Source: a bacterium (GTDB lineage Bacteria; Patescibacteriota; Minisyncoccia; UBA6257; JAGOQP01). Taken from it: DNA of 45,740 bases. The notes beneath the pieces are model-generated. The model was not told where the DNA came from. It was given only the letters and a program-made list of their open reading frames with translations, and made no database searches. Below are positions 29,868 through 45,692 of this stretch, piece by piece. A program made the position numbers and the translations under genes. The stretch covers positions 1 to 45,740 of the forward strand of contig JAJYXK010000013.1 of NCBI GenBank assembly GCA_021801825.1. The letters run 5' to 3'. Position 1 is the first letter of the stretch; each line of letters opens with the position of its first letter.

Positions 29868-29871
29868 ATAG

Positions 29872-30042: not shown

Positions 30043-30054
30043 ATGTTTTTAATA

Positions 30055-30750: not shown

Positions 30751-30777
30751 AATTTTGCAAACTACTTAAGTACTAAA

Positions 30778-31542
30778 TTAACGCGTAGTCGACTTAGGCG
30801 CCTTAGAAATCGCAGATTGTATCAATGTCTTAAAATCTTCATAGCCGCGCGGATTTTCGATCTTCTCGCCATTCAGAAAAAATGAGGGCGTGCCCTGAAG
30901 ATTGAGTTTTTGTCCTGACCCGCGATCTCGTTCTATGCGGTCTTTTAATTCTTGCGATGCAATATCCTTGCCATACTGATCCATACCAAGTCCGATTTGT
31001 CGGGCGTAGTTTTCAAAAATCTTGGGATCAGGCGCCTGCTTTTCACCCCAGTCTCTCTGGTTCTCAAAAACAATATTATGCATCTCCCAATATTTTCCCT
31101 GTCGACCGGCCGCTTCCACGGCAAGTGCCGAGGTCATACTGTTTTTATGGCCTGGCAAGGGGAAATATCTGTTGATAAATCGTACTTCGTTGCCGAATTC
31201 TTCAGCTAAACGCTTCACGACAGGATAATACGCACCGCAAGCTTCGCATTCAAAATCAAGATATTCCACAACGGTAACGGGCGCATTTTTGTTTCCTTTT
31301 GTCCAATCATCTGCGACAGCTGTGAGCAATTCGCTGGTTGGAACTACCGGTCTGCCCGAGACGTACCAGAATATTCCGCCAATTGATCCAGCAATAATAA
31401 GTATGATCGCGAACCGTTTCGTCCACTTCTTTACTGCTTTCGACCGCTCCCGCACCTGTTCTTCTTTAGCTTTCTCTTGCTGCCGTAATTCTTTCCGCTC
31501 TCGCTTGGTAAGTATCTGGTTGTTTTGCTCGTTTGGTTCCAT
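30778..31542 (-). CDS. Membrane-anchored DsbA-like thiol-disulfide oxidoreductase
   Basis: The 254-residue protein has a charged N-terminus with coiled-coil character (TKRERKELRQQEKAKEEQ), one membrane helix (FAIILIIAGSIGGIFWYV) and an exported thioredoxin-fold domain: VVEYLDFECEACGAYYPVVKRLAEEFG with active site CEAC, RYFPLPGHKNS, and the cis-proline loop LQGTPSFFLNGE. It probably forms disulfides in exported proteins. It is one of two DsbA-like proteins in this module. Confidence 0.88.
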   Translation of the reverse strand: MEPNEQNNQILTKRERKELRQQEKAKEEQVRERSKAVKKWTKRFAIILIIAGSIGGIFWYVSGRPVVPTSELLTAVADDWTKGNKNAPVTVVEYLDFECEACGAYYPVVKRLAEEFGNEVRFINRYFPLPGHKNSMTSALAVEAAGRQGKYWEMHNIVFENQRDWGEKQAPDPKIFENYARQIGLGMDQYGKDIASQELKDRIERDRGSGQKLNLQGTPSFFLNGEKIENPRGYEDFKTLIQSAISKAPKSTTR

Positions 31543-31564
31543 GATATATCAATTAATGCCAAAT

Positions 31565-32641
31565 TTATTTAATAAGTTTTTCCGGTCCGACTGCCCGGTC
31601 ATACCTTCTGCCGTCAAACATAATGGTGGGTATTTTTATCGTTTTTATCTTATCCTCTACGATCTCTTTTTGATTAGCCAAACTCAATCGTACTTCTTCC
31701 GAATTGGCCATTTGCCGTATCTTGTCCCGATCTTCTTTTGAATACCCGATGTCTGCCAACCACGAGAGAATCATATCCTCGGCCTCTGTCGAGGTGTAAA
31801 TCGTATTGAACTTGATTTGGTAAACAACATTATCAATATCTTTTCCGGTAAAGATTTTTTCCAGAATCTGCCAGTCTGCTGGCACGTTCGCCGAAGCCAA
31901 CGGAAAACGCTTTACCGCTTCTAAGTACGAAGCGACCATTTTTGAATGAGGAAAACGATATCCGTTTGCCTGTTTTGTATCGGGTATCGGGTATACCAAA
32001 TAGGTAAGGTTATATCTGTCGGCAAAGCCTGTGTCCTTGATGTTGCCGAACAGTTTGGCGCAAAATTTACAGCTTGGATCTACTATCTCAAGCGCAACAG
32101 TTTTACTAGAATCATAGGGTTTGTAGTAAGAATTTGATTCAGAGATAAATTCATTCGGATTCCATTCTTTGAATCGATTCGGAATCATTGTGATTGTTTC
32201 TCCAAGAGTAAGAACACCGTCTTTTGCCCAGGTGAATACTTGCCCTTCTTTCAGAGAAACCCAAAAGCTAGGTTTCCCAGAGTTTATTCCACACCCACCA
32301 CCGCCAAGTGAACATGATTCTGGGTTATTGGGGTTGCAAGTGTCATAAACTAAGAGATTGAGACCGCTGTTCAATACTATAAGAAGGCTCCACACGCTTA
32401 GAATTACAAAAACCGAAGCAAAAACCCCGATCCAGCGGTCGAGGAATCTGGCCAAACGCGGTTTGGTGATAATGAATCTTCTCAAAAGTTTGGCCTTGGC
32501 TTCTTCCTGAAAATTAATATCGCACGGCCTGAAGGTCATTTTTCGAAGCGTACACTTCCATGCTTTCTTCGCCAAAGACCGGTAGCTGGCCGAAAAGACG
32601 CCAAGGATTGCAAAAATGATAAATGCCGCAATGCAAAACAT
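31565..32641 (-). CDS. Membrane protein with an extracytoplasmic thioredoxin-like domain
   Basis: The 358-residue protein has hydrophobic helices at residues ~2-20 and ~72-95, a cysteine-rich loop (CNPNNPESCSLGGGGCG) and a thioredoxin-fold domain from about residue 180 with VALEIVDPSCKFCAKLFG (CKFC active site) and a cis-Pro-like IKIPTIMFDGRRYD. It resembles no named Dsb protein I know but is probably a thiol oxidoreductase working with the DsbA-like proteins. It directly follows the cysteine-desulfurase-like gene, 3 bp apart. Confidence 0.7.
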   Translation of the reverse strand: MFCIAAFIIFAILGVFSASYRSLAKKAWKCTLRKMTFRPCDINFQEEAKAKLLRRFIITKPRLARFLDRWIGVFASVFVILSVWSLLIVLNSGLNLLVYDTCNPNNPESCSLGGGGCGINSGKPSFWVSLKEGQVFTWAKDGVLTLGETITMIPNRFKEWNPNEFISESNSYYKPYDSSKTVALEIVDPSCKFCAKLFGNIKDTGFADRYNLTYLVYPIPDTKQANGYRFPHSKMVASYLEAVKRFPLASANVPADWQILEKIFTGKDIDNVVYQIKFNTIYTSTEAEDMILSWLADIGYSKEDRDKIRQMANSEEVRLSLANQKEIVEDKIKTIKIPTIMFDGRRYDRAVGPEKLIK

Positions 32642-32644
32642 GTT

Positions 32645-33841
32645 CTATGAGTTAGCTATGATTGTTTGTAGGGTTTTTACGAATGATTCGACCTGTTCTT
32701 TCGTGTTGTTGAGACCAAGGGAAACTCGCACCAGGGGTGGATATTTTTTTAGATTCTTCAGATAATAGTGACAGCAGAAATAACCACTCCTCACCATCAT
32801 TTTTTGTGCGGAGAGGAAAATGGCCAGCCTATGAGAGTCAATCTTCTCCGAGTAGAAACTTAAGATCAGACTTGGGGAATTGTTTATAAGTTTCAATGAT
32901 GGAATGCGAGACATTTCTTCGAATAGGAATTGTGCAAGCTCTTCTTGATGAACATACGCAGGCATACCTTCAGGCTTGTAGCTTTTAAGCCAATCCAAGG
33001 ATGCTCCTAAACCTATGATGCCCGCGAAATTCTGCAGACCAATTTCCAGCCGACTACTCAAGTCGTCCGGATCGGATATGAGCTGGAAACTTTCAGCTTC
33101 TACATCTTCCACCATGCCCCCGCCTATGAACCCGATGTCGAGCAAAGTCAGAAGGGATTTTTTGATAACAATTACTCCAATACTGGGACCGTACATCTTG
33201 TGGCCGGAAAAGAACAATGCGTCAAAATCGCTTTCACGTATTACTTTCTGGTCATGGCTCATGCTTTGAGCGGCATCAACAAGCACTATTCCGCCCGTTT
33301 TGTGGACATCAGAGGCGATTTCTTTCAGATTAGTCAGCTCACGTCCATCAATGTTGGACATGCTGTTTAGAACCACGATCGCACCCGCGACATCTTCTTT
33401 GTCATACGACAGCGATCCGTCGTCTCTACGCTCTAAGAGGACGCGTGGAATGTTCAGTCTTTTTGCGACGCTGATAGTCGGTAGAAAAACTGAATTGTGC
33501 TCGATGTCCGAAGTTATAATTTTCGTGAATTTCGGTGGCAACTGACCGAGTACCAAATTCAGGCCATATGTGGTGTTAAGCGTAAACGCCACCGCATATT
33601 CGGAAGCTGATTTACCTACGAAAGCGAGTACTTTCTTTCTCGTCTCTTTTATTTTTTCATCCAACTTTACGCCCCAGTCGTATTTTACCCGTCCTCCACA
33701 AGAATTGTATTCGTGGTAATACTCCGACATCGCATCTATTACTTGCTCCGGACGCAATGTTTGGCAAGCCGAATCAAGATAGACAGTCTTACTGTCCAGA
33801 TATGAGAAGTCGAATGGGTTTTTATTTACTGATGATTGCAT
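32645..33841 (-). CDS. Cysteine-desulfurase-like class V aminotransferase
   Basis: The 398-residue PLP enzyme has the SufS/CsdA-like pattern: YLDSACQTLRPEQVIDAM, IEHNSVFLP, VLVDAAQSMSHD, the PLP lysine in FFSGHKMYGPSIGVIV and the catalytic-loop cysteine in VRSGYFCCHYYL. It would release sulfur from cysteine as an enzyme persulfide. I chose the ATG at 33841, 2 bp after the upstream stop; the longer ORF start at 33949 would lie inside the DsbA gene. No scaffold or SufU-type partner is adjacent, so sulfur delivery to this thiol/metal module rather than general Fe-S assembly is a possibility. Confidence 0.85.
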   Translation of the reverse strand: MQSSVNKNPFDFSYLDSKTVYLDSACQTLRPEQVIDAMSEYYHEYNSCGGRVKYDWGVKLDEKIKETRKKVLAFVGKSASEYAVAFTLNTTYGLNLVLGQLPPKFTKIITSDIEHNSVFLPTISVAKRLNIPRVLLERRDDGSLSYDKEDVAGAIVVLNSMSNIDGRELTNLKEIASDVHKTGGIVLVDAAQSMSHDQKVIRESDFDALFFSGHKMYGPSIGVIVIKKSLLTLLDIGFIGGGMVEDVEAESFQLISDPDDLSSRLEIGLQNFAGIIGLGASLDWLKSYKPEGMPAYVHQEELAQFLFEEMSRIPSLKLINNSPSLILSFYSEKIDSHRLAIFLSAQKMMVRSGYFCCHYYLKNLKKYPPLVRVSLGLNNTKEQVESFVKTLQTIIANS

Positions 33842-33843
33842 AA

Positions 33844-34638
33844 TTATTTTTCCTGCAACGCTTGCTCGATGAGTGCTTTCACTGAAGCGTAAGGCTGAGC
33901 ACCGTTTAGAGGGTACTTCTTGCCATTCTTGGCGACCACGATACTCCATGGCGTGCCATTGCCTCCCGTCGCTTGCGCGTTTTGAGCATCCTGCTCAACA
34001 TGCTGGGCGTACTTTCCACTATTTAAACAGGTGTTAAATTTGTTCACGTTGAGACCGACATATTGGGCGATTTTTGGAAGCTCTGCCGAATCAAGGCCGT
34101 TATTGGATGGCGTGACTTCATAGAGCCGATCAGTATACGCCCAGAATTTCTCCGATCCGCCTAATTCATTGGCGCACTCCAAAGCCTCCGCTTCTTTGGA
34201 AGCCTTGGTGTGCAGTTGTACTAACGGGAACTGGCGGTAAACCCATGCCACCTTGCCGCTTTTGCCATACTCATCCATGACTTGCTTCATGGTGTCATGG
34301 AAGCGTTTGCAGAACGGGCACTCGGTGTCCGAGTATTCTACGATATTAACCGGCGCATCCGGATTGCCGCGGATATGATCTTTTGCCGAGATTGCGGCCA
34401 TTTGATCTAGCGATCCGATGTCTTCCTGCGGAATTTGCTGATTCGCAATCTTATTATTCGCATTGTTCCCCGATACAGTCGGGGTAGCAGAATTTTTCCC
34501 TGACGAGTAAATTACTGCGCCAGCGATCAGCGCTCCGGCCACGACAATAGCCAAAGGAACCATGTATTTACTTGTTTGCGAAGAGATGACTTTGAGTTGT
34601 GATGATTCCGCTTCGTGATGTTGATGTTCTTCAGTCAT
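33844..34638 (-). CDS. Membrane-anchored DsbA-like protein with CPFC site
   Basis: The 264-residue protein has a His-rich N-terminus (TEEHQHHEAESS), one membrane helix (MVPLAIVVAGALIAGAVIYSS), a flexible linker and a DsbA-type domain: NIVEYSDTECPFCKRFHDTMKQVMDEYG with the CPFC active site, YRQFPLVQLHTKA and the cis-proline loop GGNGTPWSIVV. It would oxidise thiols outside the membrane. The histidine-rich cytoplasmic end could bind metal. It shares the operon with the second DsbA-like protein. Confidence 0.9.
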   Translation of the reverse strand: MTEEHQHHEAESSQLKVISSQTSKYMVPLAIVVAGALIAGAVIYSSGKNSATPTVSGNNANNKIANQQIPQEDIGSLDQMAAISAKDHIRGNPDAPVNIVEYSDTECPFCKRFHDTMKQVMDEYGKSGKVAWVYRQFPLVQLHTKASKEAEALECANELGGSEKFWAYTDRLYEVTPSNNGLDSAELPKIAQYVGLNVNKFNTCLNSGKYAQHVEQDAQNAQATGGNGTPWSIVVAKNGKKYPLNGAQPYASVKALIEQALQEK

Positions 34639-34683
34639 ATTTATAGTATTTATGGATTATTAATGAAATACAAATAAAATAAA

Positions 34684-34730
34684 CCGGCATTGAGACCAAA
34701 CCCGTATGCCAAAATACGGATCAGTGCCGG
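34684..34730 (-). terminator. Two-tier hairpin between two module genes
   Basis: On the minus strand, CCGGCA...TGCCGG encloses a second hairpin CCGTAT/ATACGG, followed by TTTATTTTATTT. It could terminate or attenuate transcription between the 134-residue protein gene and the DsbA-like gene. Confidence 0.55.
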
Positions 34731-34742
34731 CTAAAAAATAGG

Positions 34743-35147
34743 TTAGTAAATTTTTGGGTTGAGAATTCCTTGCGCGAATGCAAGCTTCAGGTGATTGAAT
34801 AAAGAGAGTTCTGGATTTTGTATGTTATAAACATGTCCTATCGATGTGCCCTGAATATCAGATTTATTTCTTAAGCCCGACCCGAACACTACAACTAACA
34901 ACAATATGAATAGCAGAGAAATGACAGTAGAAACATTGGGTAAGGTTGTAGCAAGTATCTGCAGGGAACTTATATGTTCATAAACGGTTGGGCAACCTGT
35001 CTGTGCCTCGCTTATAGGACACTGGGTGGTTTGAGTCTTAAAATGATAGATCGTTTCTACCGATCCCCAGGAACAAGCAATACTAATAACGAAAGTTATT
35101 AGGACTAAAAAGAAAGCAAGTGATTTTATATGTTTGGCGATTCCCAT
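34743..35147 (-). CDS. Small membrane protein, first gene of the thiol/metal module
   Basis: The 134-residue protein has membrane helices at about residues 8-28 (LAFFLVLITFVISIACSW) and 70-92 (VSTVISLLFILLLVVVFG). The loop between them carries two cysteines (QCPISEAQTGCPT), and a ~40-residue tail follows. I do not recognise a family; it is too short for DsbB or VKOR. The exported cysteine pair suggests a redox or metal partner for the DsbA-like proteins downstream, which is inference. Confidence 0.6.
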   Translation of the reverse strand: MGIAKHIKSLAFFLVLITFVISIACSWGSVETIYHFKTQTTQCPISEAQTGCPTVYEHISSLQILATTLPNVSTVISLLFILLLVVVFGSGLRNKSDIQGTSIGHVYNIQNPELSLFNHLKLAFAQGILNPKIY

Positions 35148-35418
35148 AGATTCTAAAATTTTAGCATAATTTATGCCCTTTAGGAAATTATCTATTATTA
35201 TTAAAACTTGTAGCTAGTAGCTTGAGGGTACTGCTCGCTGAATACAAAGAAGAATAACCCAGATTTGCCATTTGTTTGCCCCTGGGGCGAGCGGTTGAGC
35301 CGAGGTGAGAGATTTGCACCGATCAGAAGCCCGAACCGAACGTAAACCATTTTTGCGACCGTAATGCGATTTGCTTAACTTTTCAAAAGTTAAGCAAATT
35401 ATCACGAGTCATATTTGC
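35148..35418. other. Non-coding spacer with inverted repeats
   Basis: No credible gene (the 63-residue minus ORF at 35214-35405 lies over repeat sequence). It contains the right boundary repeat and a perfect 15-bp inverted repeat, ATTTGCTTAACTTTT / AAAAGTTAAGCAAAT, at 35369-35399. A third ATTTGCTTAAC follows at the end of the HEPN gene. Confidence 0.5.
35274..35399 (+). repeat. Boundary repeat, right copy
   Basis: GTTTGCCCCTGGGGCGAGC (35274-35292) and CGATTTGCTTAA (35367-35378) followed by a palindrome. It matches the left copy at 27808-27923 in the same orientation; together they enclose the thiol/metal module. Confidence 0.6.
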
Positions 35419-35624
35419 TTAACCCTTTTCCTTTTTCGGCTCGGACATTAAATCAAAAATCTTTTTAGTCTCATTGATAATTTTTTCTCGCAATTTAATA
35501 TCTATAATCGCTCGCTCTAATACCTCCATAGCGTTTGATCCATCAATACCGTTTTGCTTGATTACTCTCGCAAGGTTAATATAGGCCACAAAGGCAAACC
35601 GCACGTACTCCTTATGCTTATATA
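35419..35624 (-). pseudogene. 3' fragment of the HEPN gene interrupted by the IS
   Basis: After the target-duplication codon TAT, this fragment encodes KHKEYVRFAFVAYINLARVIKQNG...KKEKG and a stop, 66 residues. If the IS and one TATATA copy are removed, it continues in frame from 36631-37501: ...DFDLLY then KHKEY. The track ORF MFIIQAAP... takes its first ~28 residues from IS sequence and is not a gene start. Confidence 0.85.
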
Positions 35625-35664
35625 CTATGAATAACGAAATGCATCTCGTAACATAATTTGATAA

Positions 35665-35698
35665 AATACAAGCGGCTCCTTTTGGAGCCGCTTGTATT
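35665..35698 (+). promoter_or_regulatory. 15-bp hairpin abutting the transposase start codon
   Basis: AATACAAGCGGCTCC-TTTT-GGAGCCGCTTGTATT is a perfect stem whose last base adjoins the ATG at 35699. In a read-through transcript it would block initiation or stop RNA polymerase, limiting transposase made from outside promoters. Confidence 0.65.
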
Positions 35699-36502
35699 AT
35701 GAACACCTTCTTAACAATCTACGACAAACTCAACACTATCGTATCACAGTTCTTCAAAACATTAAAATTCAAGGAGCGGGAACATTCCAAAGGTCGGAAA
35801 CCAATACTCAAAAATTCCGAAGCGGTCACGGCTGTCATTTTCTGGAGGAGACAGAACATCGGCAGTAAGAAGTCTCTATACGAAATTCTAGAACCTTCGA
35901 TGTCTTACAACCGCTTTGTTGTGGCCCTAAACAAAACGGCAAAATATCTGGCGACAATTATCACGGCTGTCATGAAATTTCTCCGCAAAAACGCTCATTT
36001 GGTTAAATTTACAGATTCAACCGAGCTTCCTGTCTGTCTCAATAAAAACGCAAAACAGCATAAGACTATGAGAGGACTGTCGGCTAAATCCAAAAGTTCC
36101 AAAGGTTGGTTCTATGGCTTAAAACTTCACCTTTCGGCTGACTGCCAAGGAAAAGTTTTGGCGATAAAGTTCACACCGGGCAATTCTAATGATAGGAGCA
36201 TATTCAAAAAAATGAACGACAAACAGAGAGGGTTATTCGTAGCCGACGCGGGCTATGTGTCTGAAGAGCTTGAGCGAGATTTTTTCATTGAACATGAACG
36301 ATTAGTCATTACTTGCCCGCGCAAGAATATGAAAAAACTTTCGGTTCCATGGCAAATCAGTCTCTTGAATTTGCGAATGAGAGTGGAGATTCACTTCCGC
36401 GTTCTCAAGGTTTGCTACGGACTGGTTACATCGCTTCCTCGTTCCATCGATGGTTACTTGACCCATTATATTGCCGCCATTGCTACCCATCTCATATCTT
36501 AA
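35699..36502 (+). CDS. IS982-like DDE transposase
   Basis: The 267-residue protein has an N-terminal helical DNA-binding part and an RNase H-like DDE core. Aspartate 106 lies in VKFTDSTELPVC, a second aspartate in FVADAGYVSEELE and a glutamate in RMRVEIHFRVLK, the usual DDE order. The DSTELPVC segment and the KGWFYGLKLHLSAD motif are typical of IS982 relatives. The frame is intact, so the element may be active. Its start codon directly follows a 15-bp hairpin. Confidence 0.88.
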   Translation: MNTFLTIYDKLNTIVSQFFKTLKFKEREHSKGRKPILKNSEAVTAVIFWRRQNIGSKKSLYEILEPSMSYNRFVVALNKTAKYLATIITAVMKFLRKNAHLVKFTDSTELPVCLNKNAKQHKTMRGLSAKSKSSKGWFYGLKLHLSADCQGKVLAIKFTPGNSNDRSIFKKMNDKQRGLFVADAGYVSEELERDFFIEHERLVITCPRKNMKKLSVPWQISLLNLRMRVEIHFRVLKVCYGLVTSLPRSIDGYLTHYIAAIATHLIS

Positions 36503-36630
36503 TTATTGAAAGTTTCGGTTTTCCTTGCTGTTTCTTCCTTGAATCTTTAGTTTGAGCTTGTTTTTTTCAAAACCACAGACGGCTGTGGCGAGTTTAAAGT
36601 GTATTTAAAAACGCATTTCGTTATTCACAG

Positions 36631-37501
36631 TATATAATAAGTCAAAGTCGGGAGTTGGAATGTTGTTGTATGCAGTGGGGCTTTCTTTTGCAATTTGTTC
36701 AAAAAATGAGCCATGTACGAATGCGCTTCTCGCTGAATATAATTCTTTTATGTCTTTTTCAACGTCGGGGAACCTCCAAGCAAGCAATGCGGCCATACGT
36801 TTACGTAAACGATACATAACTTCCTCATTACGAGCGTCACCGGCAGTAAAAAGAGCCTCAAGGATTGTCGCCATCTCTGCCGATTCTCTTTGCCAGCCAA
36901 ATGAACTTTTTGAATTCTCATAGTCTGACAATCCTGAATACAGGAAAGCGGCTACAAACAACCTCCAATCCTCTTTATTCCATGACTGAATACGATCTAA
37001 ATGCCAGCTACCATATTTTGATTGCTCATAAAGCGTCTTATAAAAATCTACAAAGTTTTTATTATTAAAGATTGAGTGGTTTTGATTGTGGAAGTAAATC
37101 ATAGGATCTTTACCGTGCGTCTGACGCATAATACCCATATCAGTTGCATGGAAAACGGGATAGAGAAAATTTGGAGAGTAAAGGTTTAGCAAAAATAACG
37201 TCTCGGCATAACTAAAACCGCCCTCTTCAAGGGTATTGGGAATAAGCAAACCCCATGAGCATTTTTCGTATTGCTTCTCAGTAATTCCAAATAAATCTTG
37301 TACATTATCCTCAATTTTGTAATTACGAAGTACATTATCATTTATCGGTGCTATTTTATTCTTTAATGCACCGACAAATTCATCTGTGGTAAATTTCTTG
37401 AGATTCCAAAGCTCATATCCATCTTTGAGCTCAAATAATTTAGTGTCCTCGTTTATGGGATTGCCAGTAAAGGCAAAAAACATTGTTGTTGCTCTAGCCA
37501 T
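36631..37501 (-). pseudogene. 5' part of a HEPN (ApeA-like) defence gene, interrupted by the IS
   Basis: The fragment encodes about 290 native residues, ending at ...PTPDFDLLY; the last eight of the ORF (TVNNEMRF) come from the IS end. Near residue 258, ELYSARSAFVHGS gives an Rx4H motif followed by glycine, as in ApeA-like HEPN domains that act as RNases. I chose the ATG at 37501: it overlaps the upstream stop in ATGGCTAG, indicating coupled translation, whereas the ORF start at 37600 lies deep inside the upstream gene. The intact ancestor would have had ~356 residues. The truncated protein still holds the HEPN motif and might keep some activity. Confidence 0.75.
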
Positions 37502-39311
37502 TTGGTTTATCGTTTTTTCTGATGACGGACAGGCAAAGTAGAATGTGGAATAGTCTGTTCGCAATTTGTTCATCAGCAAATGCGTTTTTATTAATGCCAT
37601 GCGCCAAGTTATTTCTTAAATTCCAACCAATGCGTGAAGTGAGCAGAACATGGAAATAATATTCAACGTCCTCGCCTTTAGTCCCAAAAATCTTTTTTAT
37701 AACACCCGATTTAATTAATTCATGTAATGACTTTTCATCATAACCGCCATCATCATTGGGTTTGATTGTTGAAACGCCACTAGTTTTGCAAAGATTTCTG
37801 ATAGCATCTTCAATAAGAGGAATTATAAGATTACTGAATGCAAGAAAATCTCTTGTCCAATACAAATTAAGTGTCTTCAAAATATAATTCTTATCTTCCG
37901 GACGAAATACGGGTGATAGGGATATCCCTTGATATAGGATATCTGGTGTGTAATATTTTATAAATTCATCAAAAGCCCACTTTAAAAAAGGCGATTGAAA
38001 ATGTAAATTCTGTGAGAAGTGTCGGAGTAAATGCTTGTCGTAGTCTTCGTTAATGGGGCCGAATTGTGCCGTGGGATAATTAAACTCCGATACAACTGTG
38101 TTAGTAACTAGATATTGAAAAACATATTTACTTGAAATATCTTTTAGTTGTTTATCGACATGATCTTTCTTCAGAATAAAAAATATTACCAATTTAGAAA
38201 TTACTTTATTTATATCATCGGTCGAATTTTCTGATCGCTTTTCTCCGAAAATTGAGTCGAGAAATTGTTTAATTTCCTCGTTTTTTATTGTAAATTCAGT
38301 TGATACTTCATGAGTAGCAAATTTCCCGCGCTCACCTATATTGCTAATTTCGGCTCTTATTCTTGTTGCGGCCTTTTTTGCAAACTCAAATTTAGAATAA
38401 CGTGAATAAATGTCTGAAATTTTTTCTAGGTAATTCAGTATTAACAAACCATCAGAATTCGCTTGTTTGCTGTCACGAAATGATTTTTCTAATTTAGAGA
38501 GCACTAATTGTAGTTTTTCTTCATTCTCGGTCAGAGCATAGTGTTCAGCAAGCAACACAACGGCACATTCGATATTCCAAGTGTTTGATTCTTCTGATTT
38601 TGATAAACGGTCCAACCTATTTTCTAAATCTAGCAATAAAGTATTTTTCTGCTCGGCGGTAATTTGATTAAAATTGGTATTTTCAAGAAGAAGCCACCTG
38701 AAAGCATAGCCCCAAAGTCCAGGCTTATCATCTTCGGCGAATTTGTTCTCTGTCTCGATGATTACCTGAACTAAGCTACTTAAACGCGAAGAATCATTAA
38801 TTTGCTTTGCTAAAGTGAGGGCGCGTTCTAGCTTGTCCTTACAACCGAGCCCATCATCAAGATTTTTTGCACAAATTTCCAACGTCGCATCTATAACTTT
38901 TTGAACCATTTTGAAATCAAACGATCCGTTTTTAATTTTCGGTTCAAAATCAACAACTAGGTCGGCATATCTACAAACGATTATTGGATGTTTAGAAGCG
39001 TTTGCACGTTCGCGCCAATAATTTAACATCGCCTCGTCAACCGATTTTATGCTAGGGAATTCAACCATCTGATTTTTATCGTTCGGCAAAACAAACATAG
39101 GGCCATAGTATGTGCCCCAACCAGTTTCTTTATTTCGATAATTTGCTAAAAATTGAAACGCTATATATTCGGCAAGTTCGTGTTTATCAGTAAGTTTTTC
39201 ATCTTTGACTTTAAGGATATCCCGAATTTTTTCGCCTATCTTAAATTCATCGATTGGCTCGATGTTATTATCAAGATCTTCGAGATATTGCTTTAATTCT
39301 TCCCTGATCAT
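37494..39311 (-). CDS. Large DUF4209-like protein with a HEPN-type RxxxxH motif
   Basis: The 605-residue protein is mostly helical. The C-terminal ~130 residues resemble DUF4209 (FSNLIIPLIEDAIRNL..., then SRIGWNLRNNLAHGINK), with R566-x4-H571, the pattern of HEPN ribonuclease active sites. The N-terminal ~450 residues are unrecognised helical repeats that could sense a trigger or partner. It is encoded directly behind a restriction endonuclease gene and is translationally coupled to a second HEPN protein. An abortive-infection or tRNA/mRNA-cleaving role in defence is inferred from motif and context only. Confidence 0.6.
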   Translation of the reverse strand: MIREELKQYLEDLDNNIEPIDEFKIGEKIRDILKVKDEKLTDKHELAEYIAFQFLANYRNKETGWGTYYGPMFVLPNDKNQMVEFPSIKSVDEAMLNYWRERANASKHPIIVCRYADLVVDFEPKIKNGSFDFKMVQKVIDATLEICAKNLDDGLGCKDKLERALTLAKQINDSSRLSSLVQVIIETENKFAEDDKPGLWGYAFRWLLLENTNFNQITAEQKNTLLLDLENRLDRLSKSEESNTWNIECAVVLLAEHYALTENEEKLQLVLSKLEKSFRDSKQANSDGLLILNYLEKISDIYSRYSKFEFAKKAATRIRAEISNIGERGKFATHEVSTEFTIKNEEIKQFLDSIFGEKRSENSTDDINKVISKLVIFFILKKDHVDKQLKDISSKYVFQYLVTNTVVSEFNYPTAQFGPINEDYDKHLLRHFSQNLHFQSPFLKWAFDEFIKYYTPDILYQGISLSPVFRPEDKNYILKTLNLYWTRDFLAFSNLIIPLIEDAIRNLCKTSGVSTIKPNDDGGYDEKSLHELIKSGVIKKIFGTKGEDVEYYFHVLLTSRIGWNLRNNLAHGINKNAFADEQIANRLFHILLCLSVIRKNDKPNG

Positions 39312-39339
39312 TTCTCATTAACTTAGATCTACGCTTCTC

Positions 39340-40137
39340 TTAAAGAATAACGGTCACTTTTTCATACAACATTGGCCAGCTATCCTGACGCATTCTAAAT
39401 TTGGTACCGTGATTATGACCACTGCGAGCATCGAAGTCGACGAGAATCTTTGCTTCTTCAATTGCTTTCAAAAATCCCTCAAAGCTGAACTTTTGAAGCA
39501 TCATAACCTTATTGTATTTGTAATATTCTTTTCCTCGGACTGTTTTGACTTCTGCCTGAACATAAAAACTATTCAAAAGTTTTGTACCGGCCTTATGTTC
39601 AAGATCATCAAAACCCCAATATGGCTGTGGATTAAGTTCGCCAAGTCCTACTCGTTCCTTTACCGCCTTAAGCCATTCGGCGTGTCGGATATCCACGCTC
39701 TTCGCATCAAAAGATATTAAGACTTTCTTTTCGGTCCGATCGATCTTTACCATAAAACCACGATCACTACGTGTAAGACCATGAATAGTCTGTCTAAAAC
39801 TCATCTCACCTTTTGGATATTTCTTTCCATCTTCCTGATGTGCCCAGCCATACTTTGGTAAAAGGACTTGTGGCACAAAACGAATAGCTCTAGGGGAGGG
39901 CTCAATGTGAAATAAAGTACAAAGAGAAGTTGAATTCAATCGTTGGGCTTTTAGTTCCCATTCGGCTGCATTTGGTATGGGTAAATTGTTTTCTTTGATT
40001 CCGAGTAAGTCCTCGAGAGTATTCCCGATACCGCCATGATTGCCCTTGCGAGCATTAGGAACCCACCCCATATTTGCAATCTCTTTTAATTTTTCAATGA
40101 GGGCCGGCTTTGTGTAAATTTTTGGTTTGTTTGGCAT
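39340..40137 (-). CDS. MvaI/BcnI-family type II restriction endonuclease
   Basis: The 265-residue protein matches the MvaI/BcnI family: GGIGNTLEDLLGIKENNLPIPNAAEWELKAQR, holding the catalytic E/D...ExK-like residues, and the C-terminal GHNHGTKFRMR block. Known members cut CCWGG or CCSGG as monomers that nick each strand. The cognate methyltransferase gene lies immediately upstream (stop at 40142, 4 bp gap). The recognition site cannot be predicted beyond a guess at a CCNGG-like sequence. Confidence 0.85.
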   Translation of the reverse strand: MPNKPKIYTKPALIEKLKEIANMGWVPNARKGNHGGIGNTLEDLLGIKENNLPIPNAAEWELKAQRLNSTSLCTLFHIEPSPRAIRFVPQVLLPKYGWAHQEDGKKYPKGEMSFRQTIHGLTRSDRGFMVKIDRTEKKVLISFDAKSVDIRHAEWLKAVKERVGLGELNPQPYWGFDDLEHKAGTKLLNSFYVQAEVKTVRGKEYYKYNKVMMLQKFSFEGFLKAIEEAKILVDFDARSGHNHGTKFRMRQDSWPMLYEKVTVIL

Positions 40138-40141
40138 ATGT

Positions 40142-40969
40142 TTATAAAAGTTTTTGTTGAGCTTTATGATTTTTAATTCTTTTCTTGGCCATCTCGCAAT
40201 ATTCCGGCGAAAGGTCGATACCGATATAATGCCGGTTAAAATTTATAGCAGAAAGTGCGGTAGTGCCTGAACCCATAAATGGGTCCAGAATAATTTTTGC
40301 ATTTGTAGACGACACAATACGATCTATAAGATTTACAGGGAAAGCGGCCGGATGTTCGTTATTCATCTCCTGGGTAAATTCCCATACGTCACCGTGGCCA
40401 CTTGCCTTAGGTGATAATTTAAACTTAGGTTTGGCGATAAGATAGATCACTTCGTATGTCGGCACGAAGTAACCAGGATTAAAATTAAAACCGCCCTTTC
40501 TTCTCCAAATTATTATCTGGCGCACAGGAAAGCCACTTACAATATCCTGCCGATCCTGCAAAACACCTCCTTGTACTCGCCACTTGTGATTATAAAAAAT
40601 TGCGCCATCTTCGGGGATAATTCTCATCATCTCCGTTAAGCATTCACGTTGCCATTTCACATACTCATCATGAGGCATGCAATCGTCGTGATGTGAATAT
40701 CCATTTTGAAGAGCCGCATTTGCCCACTTACCCTTACTACCATTTTTCATTCCGTTACCAGTAGAGTTTTTGAGATTATATGGAGGTGAGGTCACTATCA
40801 AATCAACCGAACCATCGGGTATTTTTTTCATAATATCAACCGCGTTACCGCAGATGATTTTATTTAAAAAGTGATTAGGGTATTCTAACTTCATAACTTT
40901 GGATTTAATAGGACTCGTTTTGGTTCTTGTTTTTACTTGAGTTTCCATATTATTTTGAATGCTTTTCAT
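40142..40969 (-). CDS. DNA methyltransferase of the restriction-modification pair (probably N4-cytosine)
   Basis: The 275-residue protein has the catalytic motif TSPPYN at residues 60-65, before the AdoMet motif DPFMGSGTTALSAI at ~229, so it is a beta-class amino-methyltransferase. SPPY rather than DPPY suggests N4-cytosine methylation, which also fits partners of MvaI/BcnI enzymes. It protects host DNA from the nuclease encoded next. Its start overlaps the HTH gene by 20 bp; an alternative ATG lies at 40948. Confidence 0.88.
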   Translation of the reverse strand: MKSIQNNMETQVKTRTKTSPIKSKVMKLEYPNHFLNKIICGNAVDIMKKIPDGSVDLIVTSPPYNLKNSTGNGMKNGSKGKWANAALQNGYSHHDDCMPHDEYVKWQRECLTEMMRIIPEDGAIFYNHKWRVQGGVLQDRQDIVSGFPVRQIIIWRRKGGFNFNPGYFVPTYEVIYLIAKPKFKLSPKASGHGDVWEFTQEMNNEHPAAFPVNLIDRIVSSTNAKIILDPFMGSGTTALSAINFNRHYIGIDLSPEYCEMAKKRIKNHKAQQKLL

Positions 40970-41153
40970 TTTTCTTTTTTACATTACTCGTCTCCTCAAG
41001 AAAGGCATTGAGATCGGATTGCTTGATCCGCCAAACGCCCAATTTAGACGCTTTTAACCTGCCGGACTCGATGTAGCGAGTAACTGTGCGAGTATGTACT
41101 CTCAAAATTTCGGCAATTTCCTCAATGGTGAAAAGTTTTTCTATTTCGTTCAT
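40950..41153 (-). CDS. Small helix-turn-helix (excisionase-like) DNA-binding protein
   Basis: The 67-residue protein is an HTH_17/MerR-like domain: LFTIEEIAEILRVHTRTVTRYIESGRLKASKLGVWRIKQSDLNAFLEE, with the typical wing GVWRIKQSDL. I chose the ATG at 41153 (MNEIEKLFT), just before the domain; the track start at 41207 adds an unlikely tail. It is first in the restriction-modification operon, so it may control R-M expression or serve as the element's excisionase. The dyads upstream of it are candidate operators. Confidence 0.75.
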   Translation of the reverse strand: MNEIEKLFTIEEIAEILRVHTRTVTRYIESGRLKASKLGVWRIKQSDLNAFLEETSNVKKKNEKHSK

Positions 41154-41207
41154 AAAAATAAAATTAGTCGTTGATGCCATTTTACCGCTTCCGTATTCCA
41201 TTGTCAA

Positions 41208-41417
41208 AATAGTCGTATTTTGTCATAATACACTTATAGCTAATCTGATAAAGTTTAGTGAATGGGAGATGCAAAATGGGTCCGATTCACTAAATTTTCC
41301 GATTTTGCATAGTTTACATACTGTACTATGCAAAAAAGGGACTTTTCGCATAGTACAGTATAGTAAAAAAGGAAAAGTGAACTGGAAGTAATGATTAGGA
41401 TTACATCCAGTTAAAAA
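41208..41417. promoter_or_regulatory. Divergent intergenic region with nested and interleaved dyads
   Basis: Four exact inverted repeats lie in about 160 bp: TTTAGTGAAT/ATTCACTAAA (41254-41294), interleaved with ATGCAAAAT/ATTTTGCAT (41269-41310), then ATACTGTACTATGC/GCATAGTACAGTAT (41318-41361), and a hairpin AACTGGA.GTAAT/ATTAC.TCCAGTT (41380-41412) just before the ATG at 41418. It separates the minus-strand R-M operon from the plus-strand gene and looks like a multi-operator switch. Confidence 0.65.
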
Positions 41418-42104
41418 ATGAGTATGAAAATGAAAAAGGTCGCCAAGACTACCAGCTACAAATTTAATATAAGGAAACCGGTAGATTTTATGTCAACTTA
41501 CCGATTATCTGTAGCCACCACTGAAAAGATTTTGCGATCATCGATGAAATCTTCTGGTATATCTGACGGCGACCAGATCATAAAGCGCAATCAACCAGCG
41601 ATTGGGCTTCTTACCAAAGAAATTATAGAAACCAAACTCGAGGTAAAAAGTATCCGGTCCCTCTTGGAACGCAGAACGAGCAAGTTTGAGGGACTGACTG
41701 AATACGACCAGCATTTTATAAACACATTTGCCAAAGTAGCCGCTATTTCTTTCGCTGAATATTTTTCTCAAGGCAAAATCAAACCTGTTGAATTAAACCA
41801 GACAATTCTCCACTTGTCGGCCGAAGCCGATCTGTACCGTGATCCAAAAAGTAAGTACTGCTACCCTATGGGTAAAGAACAGTCTCGCCATCAAATAATT
41901 AAATATCTGATCGGCAAAGGGTATCAGGCCACATCAGATATCCGCATGGCTACCAGTGCCAAAAGCGACTCATCCGTCCGTTCTGCGATCATGAAAATAA
42001 ATGCCAAAGCCAAGCACGACCTAGAAATAGAGGAGAAATTGATTGAGGGCCGTCGCACTGATGGTTATCGCATCAATCCAGAATATAGAATTTTCTTGAA
42101 GTGA
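41418..42104 (+). CDS. Unrecognised basic protein, possible DNA-binding regulator
   Basis: The 228-residue protein is basic at the N-terminus (MSMKMKKVAKTTSYKFNIRK). A helical middle follows (LLTKEIIETKLEVKSIRSLLERR) and a C-terminal part that may be winged-helix (HQIIKYLIGKGYQATSDIRMATSAKSDSSVRSAIMKINAKAKHDL). No family is recognised. It starts 6 bp after a 33-nt hairpin and is followed by a strong terminator, so it forms its own unit. Position between the dyad region and the replication operon suggests control of element maintenance; this is inference. Confidence 0.6.
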   Translation: MSMKMKKVAKTTSYKFNIRKPVDFMSTYRLSVATTEKILRSSMKSSGISDGDQIIKRNQPAIGLLTKEIIETKLEVKSIRSLLERRTSKFEGLTEYDQHFINTFAKVAAISFAEYFSQGKIKPVELNQTILHLSAEADLYRDPKSKYCYPMGKEQSRHQIIKYLIGKGYQATSDIRMATSAKSDSSVRSAIMKINAKAKHDLEIEEKLIEGRRTDGYRINPEYRIFLK

Positions 42105-42140
42105 CGCTCGTAGTCCCCAAGTAATGTTAATAACTTTCCC

Positions 42141-42168
42141 GAAACGCTCACAAAATGAGCGTTTTTTG
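42141..42168 (+). terminator. Terminator after the 228-residue protein gene
   Basis: AACGCTCA-CAAAA-TGAGCGTT forms an 8-bp stem followed by TTTT. Confidence 0.85.
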
Positions 42169-42206
42169 TTTGCCAAAATTTCTCTGTGGACTATTTAAGG
42201 CATAGC

Positions 42207-42272
42207 GGGTCGTTCGCTACGATAAACACATATGTTAAGCGTAGAGCGAGTCAAACAATTAGCGAACGACCC
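42207..42272 (+). promoter_or_regulatory. 13-bp inverted repeat flanking a start codon
   Basis: GGGTCGTTCGCTA (42207-42219) and its exact complement TAGCGAACGACCC (42260-42272) enclose the ATG at 42232. The left arm overlaps a possible -10 box (TACGAT, 42218-42223). It could be a looped operator pair for a repressor or an mRNA stem trapping the start region. Confidence 0.6.
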
Positions 42273-42447
42273 CACTCTCTCTGATAAACAAATCGAGGAA
42301 ATCAGAGACGGCTTTTATATGCTCTCGCAAGTGATTTTTGAACAGTGGCAAGCTGAAAGAAATAAAGCCAAAGAAGCCGAGCAAAAAGATAATAAGGAAA
42401 TTAATAACCAAAATGAATATGAAAAACCAATCGGACAACAGCAATAA
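42232..42447 (+). CDS. Small acidic/helical protein, first gene of the replication-recombination operon
   Basis: The 71-residue protein is helical and charged: LSVERVKQLANDPTLSDKQIEEIRDGFYMLSQVIFEQWQAERNKAKEAEQK, with a Gln/Asn-rich end. No family is recognised; proteins of this kind often precede recombinase genes in CPR mobile elements. TACGAT lies eight bases before the ATG, so the mRNA may be leaderless. The next gene overlaps its end. Confidence 0.55.
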   Translation: MLSVERVKQLANDPTLSDKQIEEIRDGFYMLSQVIFEQWQAERNKAKEAEQKDNKEINNQNEYEKPIGQQQ

Positions 42448-42679
42448 TTTTATCACCAGTGACTTCTATGTAGCCGCTTTCTTGCTTGCCAGCAAATATA
42501 AGCTTGTCGGCATAAACAAAACTGATGTTCGTCGGTTTCGTTTTGTTTTTGTTGATCAGCCGGGACGGGTTCAATTCGTGGAAGGATATTTTTTGGGCTT
42601 TGTCGACGTGAACGTTAAAGAGTTTGTCTCGGCGATCAAGGAACTTAAATCGCTGATGTATAACGACGCGATCGGTTGA
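42413..42679 (+). CDS. DUF5659-like small protein
   Basis: The protein is about 88 residues from the ATG at 42413 (42419 is also possible). NFITSDFYVAAFLLASKYKLVGINKTDVRRFRFVFVDQPGRVQFVEGYFLG matches the short DUF5659 pattern known from mobile elements. The track start at 42338 lies within the preceding gene and gives a lysine-rich tail of no likely use, so I rejected it. It overlaps the previous gene by 35 bp. Function is unknown. Confidence 0.6.
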   Translation: MNMKNQSDNSNNFITSDFYVAAFLLASKYKLVGINKTDVRRFRFVFVDQPGRVQFVEGYFLGFVDVNVKEFVSAIKELKSLMYNDAIG

Positions 42680-42698
42680 AAATAACTGAATATGAAAT

Positions 42699-43472
42699 AT
42701 GGAAAATCTGCCATTCGAAATAGATAACAATGATTACGTAAAGCTTCCCAGAAGCATCAAGACCGCCCTTGTGGACGGCTATTTGAGTTTTGAGGAATAC
42801 TCGGTCCTCGTCTGGTTGTGGATCAATGCCAATCCCCGGATTGGCAAAGCCCACGTAAGCTACGCCGGACTTTCCAAGGATTTCAAGGAAAAATATTCCA
42901 AAAATCATATCAATCGACTGATGTTGAACCTGAAGCGAAAGAAGTGGATATGGTTTCCGGTACAACAAGGTCGCAGAAGTTCGTTCCATGTTGATATCGC
43001 CAATTATCCTTTATCTAACGGCGGTTTTGTAGAGCTTGAGAAGCGTATCAAACAGAAGTCCGGCAGAAGTGAGAGCGATATTGATAAGCAATTACCAGCA
43101 GAAGTACCTACAGAAGTCAGTGACATTCGGCAGAAGTTGGAAAGCGACAGAAACACTTTAGTGGATAGGTTTTCTTTCGGTTCGGAAAGTTCGCTCGGCA
43201 GAAGTTCCAAGAACGACAACGAAAATGAAAATAAAAACAAACGATCGAATCGTGGTCGACCCGTAAGAGAGTTCACTCCCAAGTCTTACGAGGAACAGAA
43301 ATGCTGGGAGATTGCCCAAGATCTGGGAGAAAAAGATATGACATTCATCCTATCGGCTCTCAAGAAATACGGACTGACAATAATTGAGGAAGCTTACCGG
43401 TCCGTCATGGATCAGCCGGATAATAAAATCCGAAGTCGAGGTGCTTATTTTAATCGTTTAATGAATCTCTAA
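42699..43472 (+). CDS. Winged-helix replication-initiator-like protein
   Basis: The 257-residue protein has an N-terminal winged-helix domain (residues ~1-105: YVKLPRSIKTALVDGYLSFEEYSVLVWLWINANP...NHINRLMLNLKRKKWIWFP), a low-complexity charged linker (~110-190) and a C-terminal helical domain (FTPKSYEEQKCWEIAQDLGEKDMTFILSALKKYG...NKIRSRGAYFNRLMNL), an arrangement like DnaD or phage O-type initiators. Seven copies of CAGAAGT lie in the part encoding the end of the first domain and the linker. Lambda O is the known precedent for an initiator whose gene contains its own origin. The call as initiator is inference; a transcription factor is the alternative. Confidence 0.6.
   Translation: MENLPFEIDNNDYVKLPRSIKTALVDGYLSFEEYSVLVWLWINANPRIGKAHVSYAGLSKDFKEKYSKNHINRLMLNLKRKKWIWFPVQQGRRSSFHVDIANYPLSNGGFVELEKRIKQKSGRSESDIDKQLPAEVPTEVSDIRQKLESDRNTLVDRFSFGSESSLGRSSKNDNENENKNKRSNRGRPVREFTPKSYEEQKCWEIAQDLGEKDMTFILSALKKYGLTIIEEAYRSVMDQPDNKIRSRGAYFNRLMNL
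42974..43205 (+). repeat. Iteron-like array: seven copies of CAGAAGT
   Basis: Exact copies start at 42974, 43053, 43064, 43099, 43111, 43131 and 43199, often preceded by GG (consensus GGCAGAAGT). Relative to the reading frame they fall in all three phases (2,0,2,1,1,0,2), giving different amino acids each time, so protein repetition does not explain them. Confidence 0.75.
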
Positions 43473-43473
43473 C

Positions 43474-43971
43474 ATGCCTAAACTCACTTACTTAAGACCA
43501 AAACATAAACGAGCCATAGAAATGAAATGGCAGGGTTCTCAGTACAAAGAAATTGCCAACGAGGTTGGAGTCTCGATTGATACGGTTAAATTCTGGTTTA
43601 GAGCGAATGGGTTTTTGAGAGAATCCTATAACACATACAGAGGCGAGCAAATTCTAAACAGGGACGTTCAGGAAAAACAAGAAAGAATAAAAGCACTTAC
43701 TGGCAATGGTTTGCCACAAAGCGCAACGAATATCATAGATTCTCTAAGTCTGCCGATCCGCAAAATGTTCCAGAAGCTACCGGCGAAAGAAAAAGATGCG
43801 GTGATGGAACGATTTTATGAATTGACTCGGGAGTCCGAGGAGAGAATGAATAACTACACTAAACGGCACCAACTCACACCAAATGACACCAAAAATGAGA
43901 AAGAAATAAATACACTTAGACCAGATAATGCCCAAAATAAGCCACCGGACCGAGCAAAATCATGCGAATAA
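43474..43971 (+). CDS. Helix-turn-helix protein (terminase-small/transposase-HTH-like)
   Basis: The 165-residue protein begins with an HTH of the kind found in transposases and small terminases: KHKRAIEMKWQGSQYKEIANEVGVSIDTVKFWFRANGF. A charged helical region follows (LPIRKMFQKLPAKEKDAVMERFYEL) and then a disordered Asn/Lys-rich tail. It starts 1 bp after the initiator-like gene's stop, so they are coupled. Likely a DNA-binding accessory of the element; exact role unknown. The spacer to the recombinase (43972-44100) contains two TTAAATnCAAC direct repeats. Confidence 0.65.
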   Translation: MPKLTYLRPKHKRAIEMKWQGSQYKEIANEVGVSIDTVKFWFRANGFLRESYNTYRGEQILNRDVQEKQERIKALTGNGLPQSATNIIDSLSLPIRKMFQKLPAKEKDAVMERFYELTRESEERMNNYTKRHQLTPNDTKNEKEINTLRPDNAQNKPPDRAKSCE

Positions 43972-44100
43972 CTACACTTAAATGCAACAAAATGCAGTTA
44001 AATACAACGTTTGAGCAGAAAATCCGAGCTGTGGGCAACTCGAGCTTAGCTTGTTCCACAAAATAGCGTATGTTGTGTGTTGAGAAATCTCTGAGAAAAT

Positions 44101-45681
44101 ATGATGAAAGGAATTATTTACACAAGAGTATCAAGCGACGAACAGGTCAAAGGCACCTCGCTGGAACACCAAGAGGAACTTTGCCGGAAATACTGCAAGG
44201 ACAAAGGCATTGAAGTTGACGTGGTTTTCCGTGAGGAAGGCGAAAGTGCCAAAGACCTGAGCTTACAGAACCGCAAAAAGTTTCTGGAAGCTCTCGAATT
44301 CTGTCGCAAGAACAAAGACAAGGTCCAAGCCTTCGTCGTTTTGCGTGTAGATAGATTTGCCCGTAATGCCGATGACCATTTTGCTATCAGAAAAATCCTG
44401 GCGACATACGGCACAACATTGCATTCAGTCACCGAACCAATCGGAAACGAGCCGGTGGCTAAGCTCTTGGAAACATTTCTTGCTGGCATTGCTGAATTTG
44501 ATAACGCTATCAGAAAACAAAGATGCAGTGACGGCATGTTGGCCAGAATCAATCAAGGCATTTATCCGTGGAAACCGCCGATTGGCTATAAGTGCGTCAA
44601 CTTCAAAAAGCACGGCGAGAAAAAGACCCACGCCGATCCACCGCACGAGCAGATATTCCCGATCATTCAAAGAGGACTGAAAGAATTTGCCCAAGGTCTG
44701 CACTCGCAAAGCGAGCTGATGAGAAAACTGGACGAATGGGGTCTCAAGGATTTAACCGGAAAGAAAAGCACTCCTCAGCTCGTAAGCCGATTAGTAACCA
44801 ACTATCTGAAATTTTATGCCGGCATAATTACCAATCCGTGGACAGGCAAAGATATTGAGGGCCAGCATATTCCGATGATTACCAAGGACGAGATGTATCA
44901 AATCAAAATGATCCTGACCGGTAAAAAGAGACTGGTGGCAAAATACAACATCTTCAACCCAGACTTTCCGCTGAGACGAACCGTGACCTGTGCCGTTTGT
45001 GGACGACCACTGACCGGAAGCGCGCCTCGAGGTGGGATGGGAGGACGATATAACTATTATCACTGCGGAAATAAGAATTGCTGTGTGTTTGGCAAAAGCA
45101 CACCCAAACTGGAACTGGAAAAGATGTTTTTTGAATATTTAGAGAGAGTTACTCCAAAACAAGCGTTTCTCGATATCTTCAAGGAAAGCGTGATCGATAT
45201 TTGGAAAGAGAAAGGCCAGAGATTTGAAATGGAAGCCGAGAAGTGGAAAAAGAAACTGGAAACGCTCGAGGCAAAGAAAAAACGCATCTACGAAATGCGT
45301 GAGGACGGTTCTTATACCAAAGAGGAGTTTGTGGAACGAAAAGATGAAATTGAAAACGAAATATCGACTACCAGAATATTATCAAACGAAGCCCGGATCG
45401 AGCAGTTTGATATTGAAGGATCAATCATTTATGCGACCAAGTTCATAAGCAATCTCGGCCGGCAATGGTTTGATCTTGTGCCACACTTACAGCCCAAGTT
45501 CCAGAAACTGGTCTTCCCGGAAGGAATACCGTTTGAATGGAAAAAAGGATTTGGAACTGCCAAATTAGCAGTCATTTACGAGATGAATCGGGAATTCTCG
45601 ACTGAAAATTCTGCTTTGGTGGACCGTAGGAGATTCGAACTCCTGACCTCGTCATTGCAAATGACGCGCTCTACCAACTAA
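44101..45681 (+). CDS. Large serine recombinase (site-specific integrase)
   Basis: The 526-residue protein has a resolvase/invertase catalytic domain (residues ~1-150) with the nucleophile serine in YTRVSSDEQ and VVLRVDRFARN. It is followed by a recombinase domain (GIYPWKPPIGYKC...), a zinc ribbon (CAVCGRPLTGSAPRGG...YHCGNKNCC) and a coiled coil (~375-440). It would integrate and excise the element. The last ~20 codons (VDRRRFELLTSSLQMTRSTN) are read from the opposite strand of the tRNA-Ala gene, so the C-terminus was probably set by the insertion site. An ATG-ATG pair opens the gene. Confidence 0.93.
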   Translation: MMKGIIYTRVSSDEQVKGTSLEHQEELCRKYCKDKGIEVDVVFREEGESAKDLSLQNRKKFLEALEFCRKNKDKVQAFVVLRVDRFARNADDHFAIRKILATYGTTLHSVTEPIGNEPVAKLLETFLAGIAEFDNAIRKQRCSDGMLARINQGIYPWKPPIGYKCVNFKKHGEKKTHADPPHEQIFPIIQRGLKEFAQGLHSQSELMRKLDEWGLKDLTGKKSTPQLVSRLVTNYLKFYAGIITNPWTGKDIEGQHIPMITKDEMYQIKMILTGKKRLVAKYNIFNPDFPLRRTVTCAVCGRPLTGSAPRGGMGGRYNYYHCGNKNCCVFGKSTPKLELEKMFFEYLERVTPKQAFLDIFKESVIDIWKEKGQRFEMEAEKWKKKLETLEAKKKRIYEMREDGSYTKEEFVERKDEIENEISTTRILSNEARIEQFDIEGSIIYATKFISNLGRQWFDLVPHLQPKFQKLVFPEGIPFEWKKGFGTAKLAVIYEMNREFSTENSALVDRRRFELLTSSLQMTRSTN

Positions 45682-45692
45682 GCTAACGGCCC
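45617..45692 (-). tRNA. tRNA-Ala (TGC anticodon), encoded CCA
   Basis: On the minus strand: acceptor GGGCCGT/ACGGTCC (one G-U), D-arm with AGCTTAGTTGGTAGAGC, anticodon arm GTCAT-TTGCAAT-type loop reading TGC, T-arm AGGAG-TTCGAAT-CTCCT, discriminator A and an encoded CCA (45617-45619). The serine recombinase ORF overlaps most of it on the other strand; it is the probable integration target. Confidence 0.93.

Follow-up and report, generated by a model that had tools for sequence, protein, structure and literature searches.

A candidate replication origin of seven direct repeats embedded in the putative initiator gene of a Patescibacteria integrative element

In RepA_N plasmids of the pSK41 type, the initiator has a winged-helix N domain and a compact helical C domain of five helices that binds DnaG primase; four Rep boxes lie centrally in the rep gene, and the linker is encoded by the origin (PMC5703833). 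PLE, an integrating element, carries the initiator RepA together with a large serine recombinase, and its origin is non-coding (PMC7145576). In lambda, the iterons are 19-bp imperfect inverted repeats that lie mid-way in the O gene with A+T-rich DNA adjoining, and their count varies between relatives (PMC7466680). In phage SPP1, the initiator gp38 binds direct repeats inside its own gene (oriL), which has an AT-rich unwinding element; the phage has a second origin, oriR, elsewhere, and a helicase loader and helicase of its own (PMC6316719). Among open-licence literature, as represented by titles and the starts of abstracts, there was no paper on the Rep gene family described below or on an origin on such Patescibacteria elements.

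We analysed a stretch of 45,740 nucleotides, referred to as the window, in which a protein of 257 amino acids is probably the initiator of an 18-kb integrative element, the seven CAGAAGT repeats in its gene are its iterons, and the origin is embedded in this rep gene. In order to place the locus among the described systems, we compared its features with theirs. As in RepA_N plasmids, the candidate origin is in the linker-coding part of rep and the protein has a helical C domain (the latter by prediction); however, there are seven plain, unevenly spaced 7-bp direct repeats compared to four boxes in pSK41, and four predicted helices in the C domain compared to five. A large serine recombinase accompanies such an initiator both here and in PLE, but the PLE origin is non-coding whereas the present candidate is within the gene. 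Iterons within the initiator gene, A+T-rich DNA alongside and an iteron count that changes between relatives are shared with the lambda origin, although widely and unevenly spaced 7-bp direct repeats take the place of 19-bp imperfect inverted ones. Direct repeats within the initiator's own gene are shared with SPP1, whereas no counterpart of oriR, the helicase loader or the helicase was seen here. The preliminary description of this DNA had likened the gene to lambda O. This analogy is fair, but RepA_N plasmids, with a linker-coding origin between a winged-helix N domain and a helical C domain, are closer in architecture. By analogy, the mechanism may work like that of RepA_N, SPP1 and lambda origins, while the protein belongs to the sequence family of none of them and the iteron form differs. 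The Pfam family RepA_N (PF06970) had no match in the genomes carrying the gene (0/3). For the lambda O family, neither Pfam nor PHROG gave a match to the window protein, and no P-like gene was recognised downstream. HTH_36 (PF13730) stayed below its curated cut-off, with weak matches in 3 of 15 members (best E 0.0022), and the window gene was not among the matches in G000.

The element and its principal genes are as follows.

27634-45624, no strand: complete integrative element between two GTGGAC cores 17,985 bp apart, at the tRNA-Ala 3' end (empty sites in G001 and G002; a second copy in G046 ends in the same way)
27634-27639, plus strand: left attachment core GTGGAC (homology to G046 begins exactly here; the flank to the left is like the G001 flank beside tRNA-Ala)
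42422-42679, plus strand: DUF5659 gene, upstream of rep and usually linked to it
42699-43472, plus strand: rep, putative replication initiator, 257 aa, intact ORF
43474-43971, plus strand: gene of a sigma-70-region-4-like HTH protein, downstream of rep
44101-45681, plus strand: large serine integrase (the ORF extends into tRNA-Ala)
45617-45692, minus strand: tRNA-Ala (TGC), integration target
45619-45624, plus strand: right attachment core GTGGAC, within tRNA-Ala

The integrase matched PF00239 over the cut-off (E 7e-27) and a PHROG integrase (E 2e-68), with PF13408 and PF07508 seen just under their cut-offs. Its reading frame extends beyond the attachment core into tRNA-Ala, so that the integrase encoded by the circular form must have another C-terminal end. 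Two empty sites in the same genus have tRNA-Ala approximately 1.5 kb (G001) and 4.8 kb (G002) past the chromosomal genes that, in the window, stop near 27.3 kb. A second copy in another family (G046) has 39341-41298, 41413-45642 and 27634-27923 in common with the window at about 90% identity, and is bounded by GTGGAC at positions 6831 and 19423 of its own stretch, 12,592 bp apart. The left end, 27634-27923 (about 290 bp), is 90% identical to the G046 left end and mostly lacks a convincing gene; it is probably attachment-site DNA or unrecognised element-end sequence. The integrase gene at one end, the tRNA 3'-end target, the short att core and the variable cargo (restriction-modification, P-type ATPase) are as in large-serine-integrase elements, for which a resolvase domain, an integrase family match, defined ends and an empty site were all found here; the difference is that relaxase, conjugation and phage structural genes were not recognised among the element genes scanned. 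The cargo includes a P-type ATPase, a transglutaminase-like protein, two DsbA-like proteins, an aminotransferase and an IS transposase. A cargo island at 37494-41207 carries a DUF4209 gene matching the candidate defence model PDC-S39, an MvaI/BcnI restriction enzyme with an N6/N4 methyltransferase, and an HTH_17 gene. Identity between this restriction enzyme and its G046 copy is 99.6%, which suggests recent transfer between families. The module of DUF5659, rep, HTH and serine integrase genes recurs with different integrases.

We then considered the predicted fold of Rep, whose parts are encoded as follows.

42741-43013, plus strand: N-terminal winged helix, residues 15-105 (AlphaFold2, pLDDT mostly 73-94 in the second model)
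42900-42938, plus strand: recognition helix, residues 68-80, assigned by position in the predicted fold; contains residue 69
43059-43253, plus strand: disordered linker, residues 121-185 (pLDDT <50 over 121-136 and 141-185)
43281-43469, plus strand: C-terminal helical domain, residues 195-257 (AlphaFold2, pLDDT about 77-90)

The arrangement of winged helix, linker and C-terminal helical domain, originally read from the sequence in the preliminary description, holds in AlphaFold2 models built from 19 and 25 aligned homologues. Four helices are predicted in the C-terminal domain, at 197-256, and this domain is the putative replisome-recruiting part. In a Foldseek comparison to predicted proteins of viruses, the model had 22 matches at E <=0.001, several of which bear the name replisome organizer or replication initiator A; a further match, at E 0.0011, is named lambda GpO N-terminal. 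The TM-scores are low; the model includes the long disordered linker. In the PDB, structure matches were generic winged helices with Z <8, with regulators and other winged-helix proteins outside replication at the top. Initiator entries among them were 4pql (Z 7.1, rmsd 2.7, 83 aligned), which we take to be a RepA_N entry, 4pt7 (7.0, 2.9, 83) and 5kbj (6.1), tied with many unrelated winged helices. Both 4pt7 and 5kbj are RepA_N entries (PMC7145576). A sequence search of the PDB with Rep gave no useful match, and searches of phage, plasmid and viral collections gave no relatives. These structure matches bear on the main rival explanation, in which Rep mainly regulates transcription and takes no part in replication; the repeats would then be operators inside the gene, at which Rep represses its own operon by roadblock or looping. 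A winged helix is by itself no proof of replication function, and the lead of regulators in the PDB matches speaks for such a role, but the viral matches are replisome organizers and replication initiators.

The seven repeats are located as follows, with their conservation in the close homologues described below.

42974-42980, plus strand: iteron 1, CAGAAGT, in the wing-coding part, phase 2; exact in 18/18 rows covering the site
43053-43059, plus strand: iteron 2, CAGAAGT, phase 0; exact in 17/18
43064-43070, plus strand: iteron 3, CAGAAGT, phase 2; exact in 18/18
43099-43105, plus strand: iteron 4, CAGAAGT, phase 1; exact in 12/18, with CAGAAGC in five and CAGAGGC in one
43111-43117, plus strand: iteron 5, CAGAAGT, phase 1; exact in 18/19
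43131-43137, plus strand: iteron 6, CAGAAGT, phase 0; exact in 18/19
43199-43205, plus strand: iteron 7, CAGAAGT, phase 2; exact in 19/19

All seven exact copies that had been reported at 42974-43205 in an initiator-like gene were found, on one strand and over 232 bp, and recomputing their gene phases gave the identical series 2,0,2,1,1,0,2, in which all three codon phases are used. The start-to-start spacing is 79/11/35/12/20/68 bp, and the repeats are direct, without inverted symmetry. Site 1 lies where the wing of the winged-helix domain is encoded, 276 bp into the gene, and sites 2-7 are within the linker-coding DNA, with site 2 at the linker edge (codons 119-121). On both strands of the whole window there are 10 copies of CAGAAGT compared to 4.6 expected (sd 1.9), and 7 of the 10 fall within these 232 bp. 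In 2000 synonymous-codon shuffles of the rep gene, CAGAAGT had a mean of 1.1 and a maximum of 4 copies, and the commonest 7-mer of any kind did not exceed 5. CAGAAGT was also the most repeated 7-base word of all 232-bp stretches in a scan across the window (29-bp steps); all other words had fewer than 6 copies, the second being poly-T with 5. Depending on phase, the word encodes xRS, QKx or AEV/TEV, so the protein does not explain the repeats. Upstream of rep, CAGAAGT was absent within 500 bp in 17 of 17 genes (the window and 16 loci). This placement, starting well inside the gene with no site ahead of it, argues against operators of the rep operon. Apart from the seven, AAGAAGT at 42939-42945, about 260 bp ahead of site 7, may be a degenerate extra site, as L018 carries CAGAAGT at this distance and L028 and L031 carry similar words.

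In order to assess the constraint on the repeats, we used a close set of 18 loci from a scan of genome contigs (67-94% protein identity, mostly Patescibacteria), which together with the window gene gave a codon alignment of 19 rows, one of which (L021) spans sites 5-7 only. CAGAAGT was exact at 120 of 129 site instances, window included. For pairs of codons encoding the same amino acid, the third base differed in 17 of 2513 comparisons (0.7%) inside the repeats and in 8531 of 28734 (29.7%) outside them, or 28.0% outside the sites but within their span; these figures are pairwise comparisons and not independent events. None of 256 circular shifts of the site mask was as low as observed (the lowest was 8.5%), and none of 20000 random codon sets was as low as the repeats. 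In L018, site 2 is lost and CAGAAGT is present instead 260 bp ahead of site 7. The preliminary description had proposed such a comparison of homologous genes. Phase-independent repeats are present at matching places in them, rather than missing or replaced by non-repeated DNA under the same protein, and the DNA is constrained far beyond the need of the protein. Selection therefore acts on the repeats at the sequence level, beyond the protein. An origin of the repeats by chance or as a repeated peptide, for which nothing was found in favour, is refuted by the use of three codon phases, the synonymous constraint and the shuffles, and we give it practically no weight. The synonymous constraint alone cannot separate RNA from DNA, and the repeats are on the same strand as the gene and co-transcribed with it, as they would be if they acted in the mRNA, by binding a regulatory RNA or an RNA-binding protein. 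However, Rfam had no match in the region, and the fixed spacing of short sites, the co-variation with the recognition helix presented below and a mobile element in need of an origin favour DNA; action in the mRNA appears very improbable. A separate observation in the same alignment is CGATCG at 43242-43247 on the plus strand, past the A-rich stretch that follows site 7, which is invariant in 19/19 close rows as the codons CGA and TCG and is also present in L043.

Profile and protein searches found the Rep family in 5 of 101, 10 of 379, 6 of 244, 9 of 383, 3 of 45, 3 of 16 and 9 of 379 genomes of draws that overlap one another. For more distant relatives we used 13 homologues with a readable linker and 20-54% identity, the broken, partial or weak relatives L005/L041, L032 and L046 being set aside. 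A template of the window offsets 0, 90, 125, 157 and 225 (sites 1, 3, 4, 6 and 7) was slid over each gene and scored for the likeness between words, whichever the word, with 500 synonymous shuffles per homologue as negative control. This template (spacing 90/35/32/68) beat at least 490 of 500 shuffles in 10 of the 13 homologues. The observed score was reached by no shuffle in L043, L003, L004, L044, L045 and L030, by 2 in L029 and L034, and by 10 in L028 and L031. It was unclear in the remaining three: L040 (19/500), L033 (45/500) and L049 (273/500). Over the four templates run in all, L049 fails each time and L033 and L040 are weak, while L003 is clear with templates 1-3-4-6-7 and 4-6-7 only. 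The in-register words of the distant homologues include CAGAAGT, CAGAGGT, CCGAGGT, CCGAAGT, CACAGGT and CGTAGGY, and in L003 and L004 site 5 is shifted by one base and hence lies in another codon phase. Between sites 3 and 7, the linker is 48 residues long in 11 of the 13 homologues. In the sisters L033 and L049, which have a 4-residue insertion, it is 52 residues long, and sites 6 and 7 are the main basis for their repeat words. The part between site 7 and the C domain has between 27 (window) and 48 residues among complete rows, and 16 in the truncated L030. The best explanation for a disordered segment of one length at 20-54% identity is a fixed DNA spacing. Seven sites in fixed asymmetrical spacing over such wide divergence are also more than a roadblock requires, and operator function without replication is, in our judgement, unlikely, while autoregulation and origin function are compatible and can coexist. 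Two contigs are unusual in other respects. On G420:C19, two divergent rep copies, L031 and L034, lie about 16.7 kb apart; their repeat words are partly unlike (CAGARGT and CAGAGGT/CACAGGT), and they may belong to two stacked elements or to a tandem. In L030/L035 (G271:C2), the rep gene is broken by stop codons and the repeats are still recognisable; this is either a decaying copy or an assembly error.

The change of words between homologues could be compared to the recognition helix. Of 33 rows, 30 have Asn as residue 69 of Rep, and the other three, L004, L029 and L033, have Asp. In codon register, nearly every recognisable site of the Asn rows has A as repeat base 2, with the exception of site 5 of L044 (CCGAAGT, C at base 2); in the Asp rows this base is C or G (G in L033). 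Among 171 gap-free columns, in a test that left out L032, column 69 is the sole one with a single letter per side. On a tree without L010, L021 and L030, the trait of residue 69 and base 2 switches twice, independently; with two switches and three Asp rows, an independent-pairs sign test cannot reach significance. Contacts between Asn and adenine are classical, and a pairing of Asn69 with A is chemically sensible. The correlation supports Rep as the reader of the CAGAAGT repeats, on the basis of the fold and of the co-variation between residue and base. Alternatively, the repeats could be an origin or another DNA site (for segregation, transfer or packaging) read by a different protein, such as a host factor or the adjacent sigma-70-region-4-like HTH protein, whose gene often adjoins rep. 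However, residue 69 in the recognition helix of Rep changes along with the repeat words, and in most loci that keep the repeats the HTH protein is 30-44% alike over a partial length, with no match in L012 and L022. A different reader is therefore quite improbable.

Returning to Rep as initiator, the serine integrase would excise the element, and the winged-helix domains would then bind the seven direct repeats in a fixed geometry, with Asn69 of the recognition helix contacting the A at repeat base 2. The assembled complex would distort the DNA and perhaps open the A-rich stretch past iteron 7, and the C-terminal helical domain could bring in a host helicase or primase for theta replication. 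Binding, DNA opening and recruitment as events, the theta mode and the host partners are inferred. The stretch in question is the following.

43206-43250, plus strand: A-rich stretch (69% A+T) past iteron 7, a candidate for the unwinding region

Stability of the region past site 7 was computed for 26 rows, leaving out L030, L031, L034, L033, L044 and L049; it was not clearly weaker than in codon-shuffled controls and was stronger in most close homologues. A stability-based unwinding element at this place is thus unsupported against synonymous shuffles, and the A+T richness reflects composition. No helicase-loader gene was recognised adjoining rep, and terminal overlap indicating a circular contig was found in 0 of 3 contigs. 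GC skew flips sign near 41-42 kb; it was set aside as origin evidence because gene orientation flips at the same place. The initiator of an excising element needs an origin, and the repeats are the best-supported candidate for it by their repetition, their one-strand layout, their absence upstream and a placement as in RepA_N, SPP1 and lambda. The repeat region is accordingly a putative replication origin.

We also lean, with some reserve, towards a wider interpretation in which the geometry of the iterons sets the linker length and its fixed residues, a change in the initiator goes with one in the repeat word (Asn69 with A, Asp69 with C or G), and such matched changes of protein and DNA give rise to origin types that are compatible or incompatible, in an undescribed family of replicating integrative elements across many Patescibacteria lineages. 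The natural pairs of initiator and word make such recognition rules testable. The locus would be an unusually clean case of two codes in one sequence, in which origin DNA dictates a protein linker. It offers a candidate replicon for Patescibacteria, a huge group of which few members are in culture, and an origin of this kind, if proven, could serve as a vector backbone.
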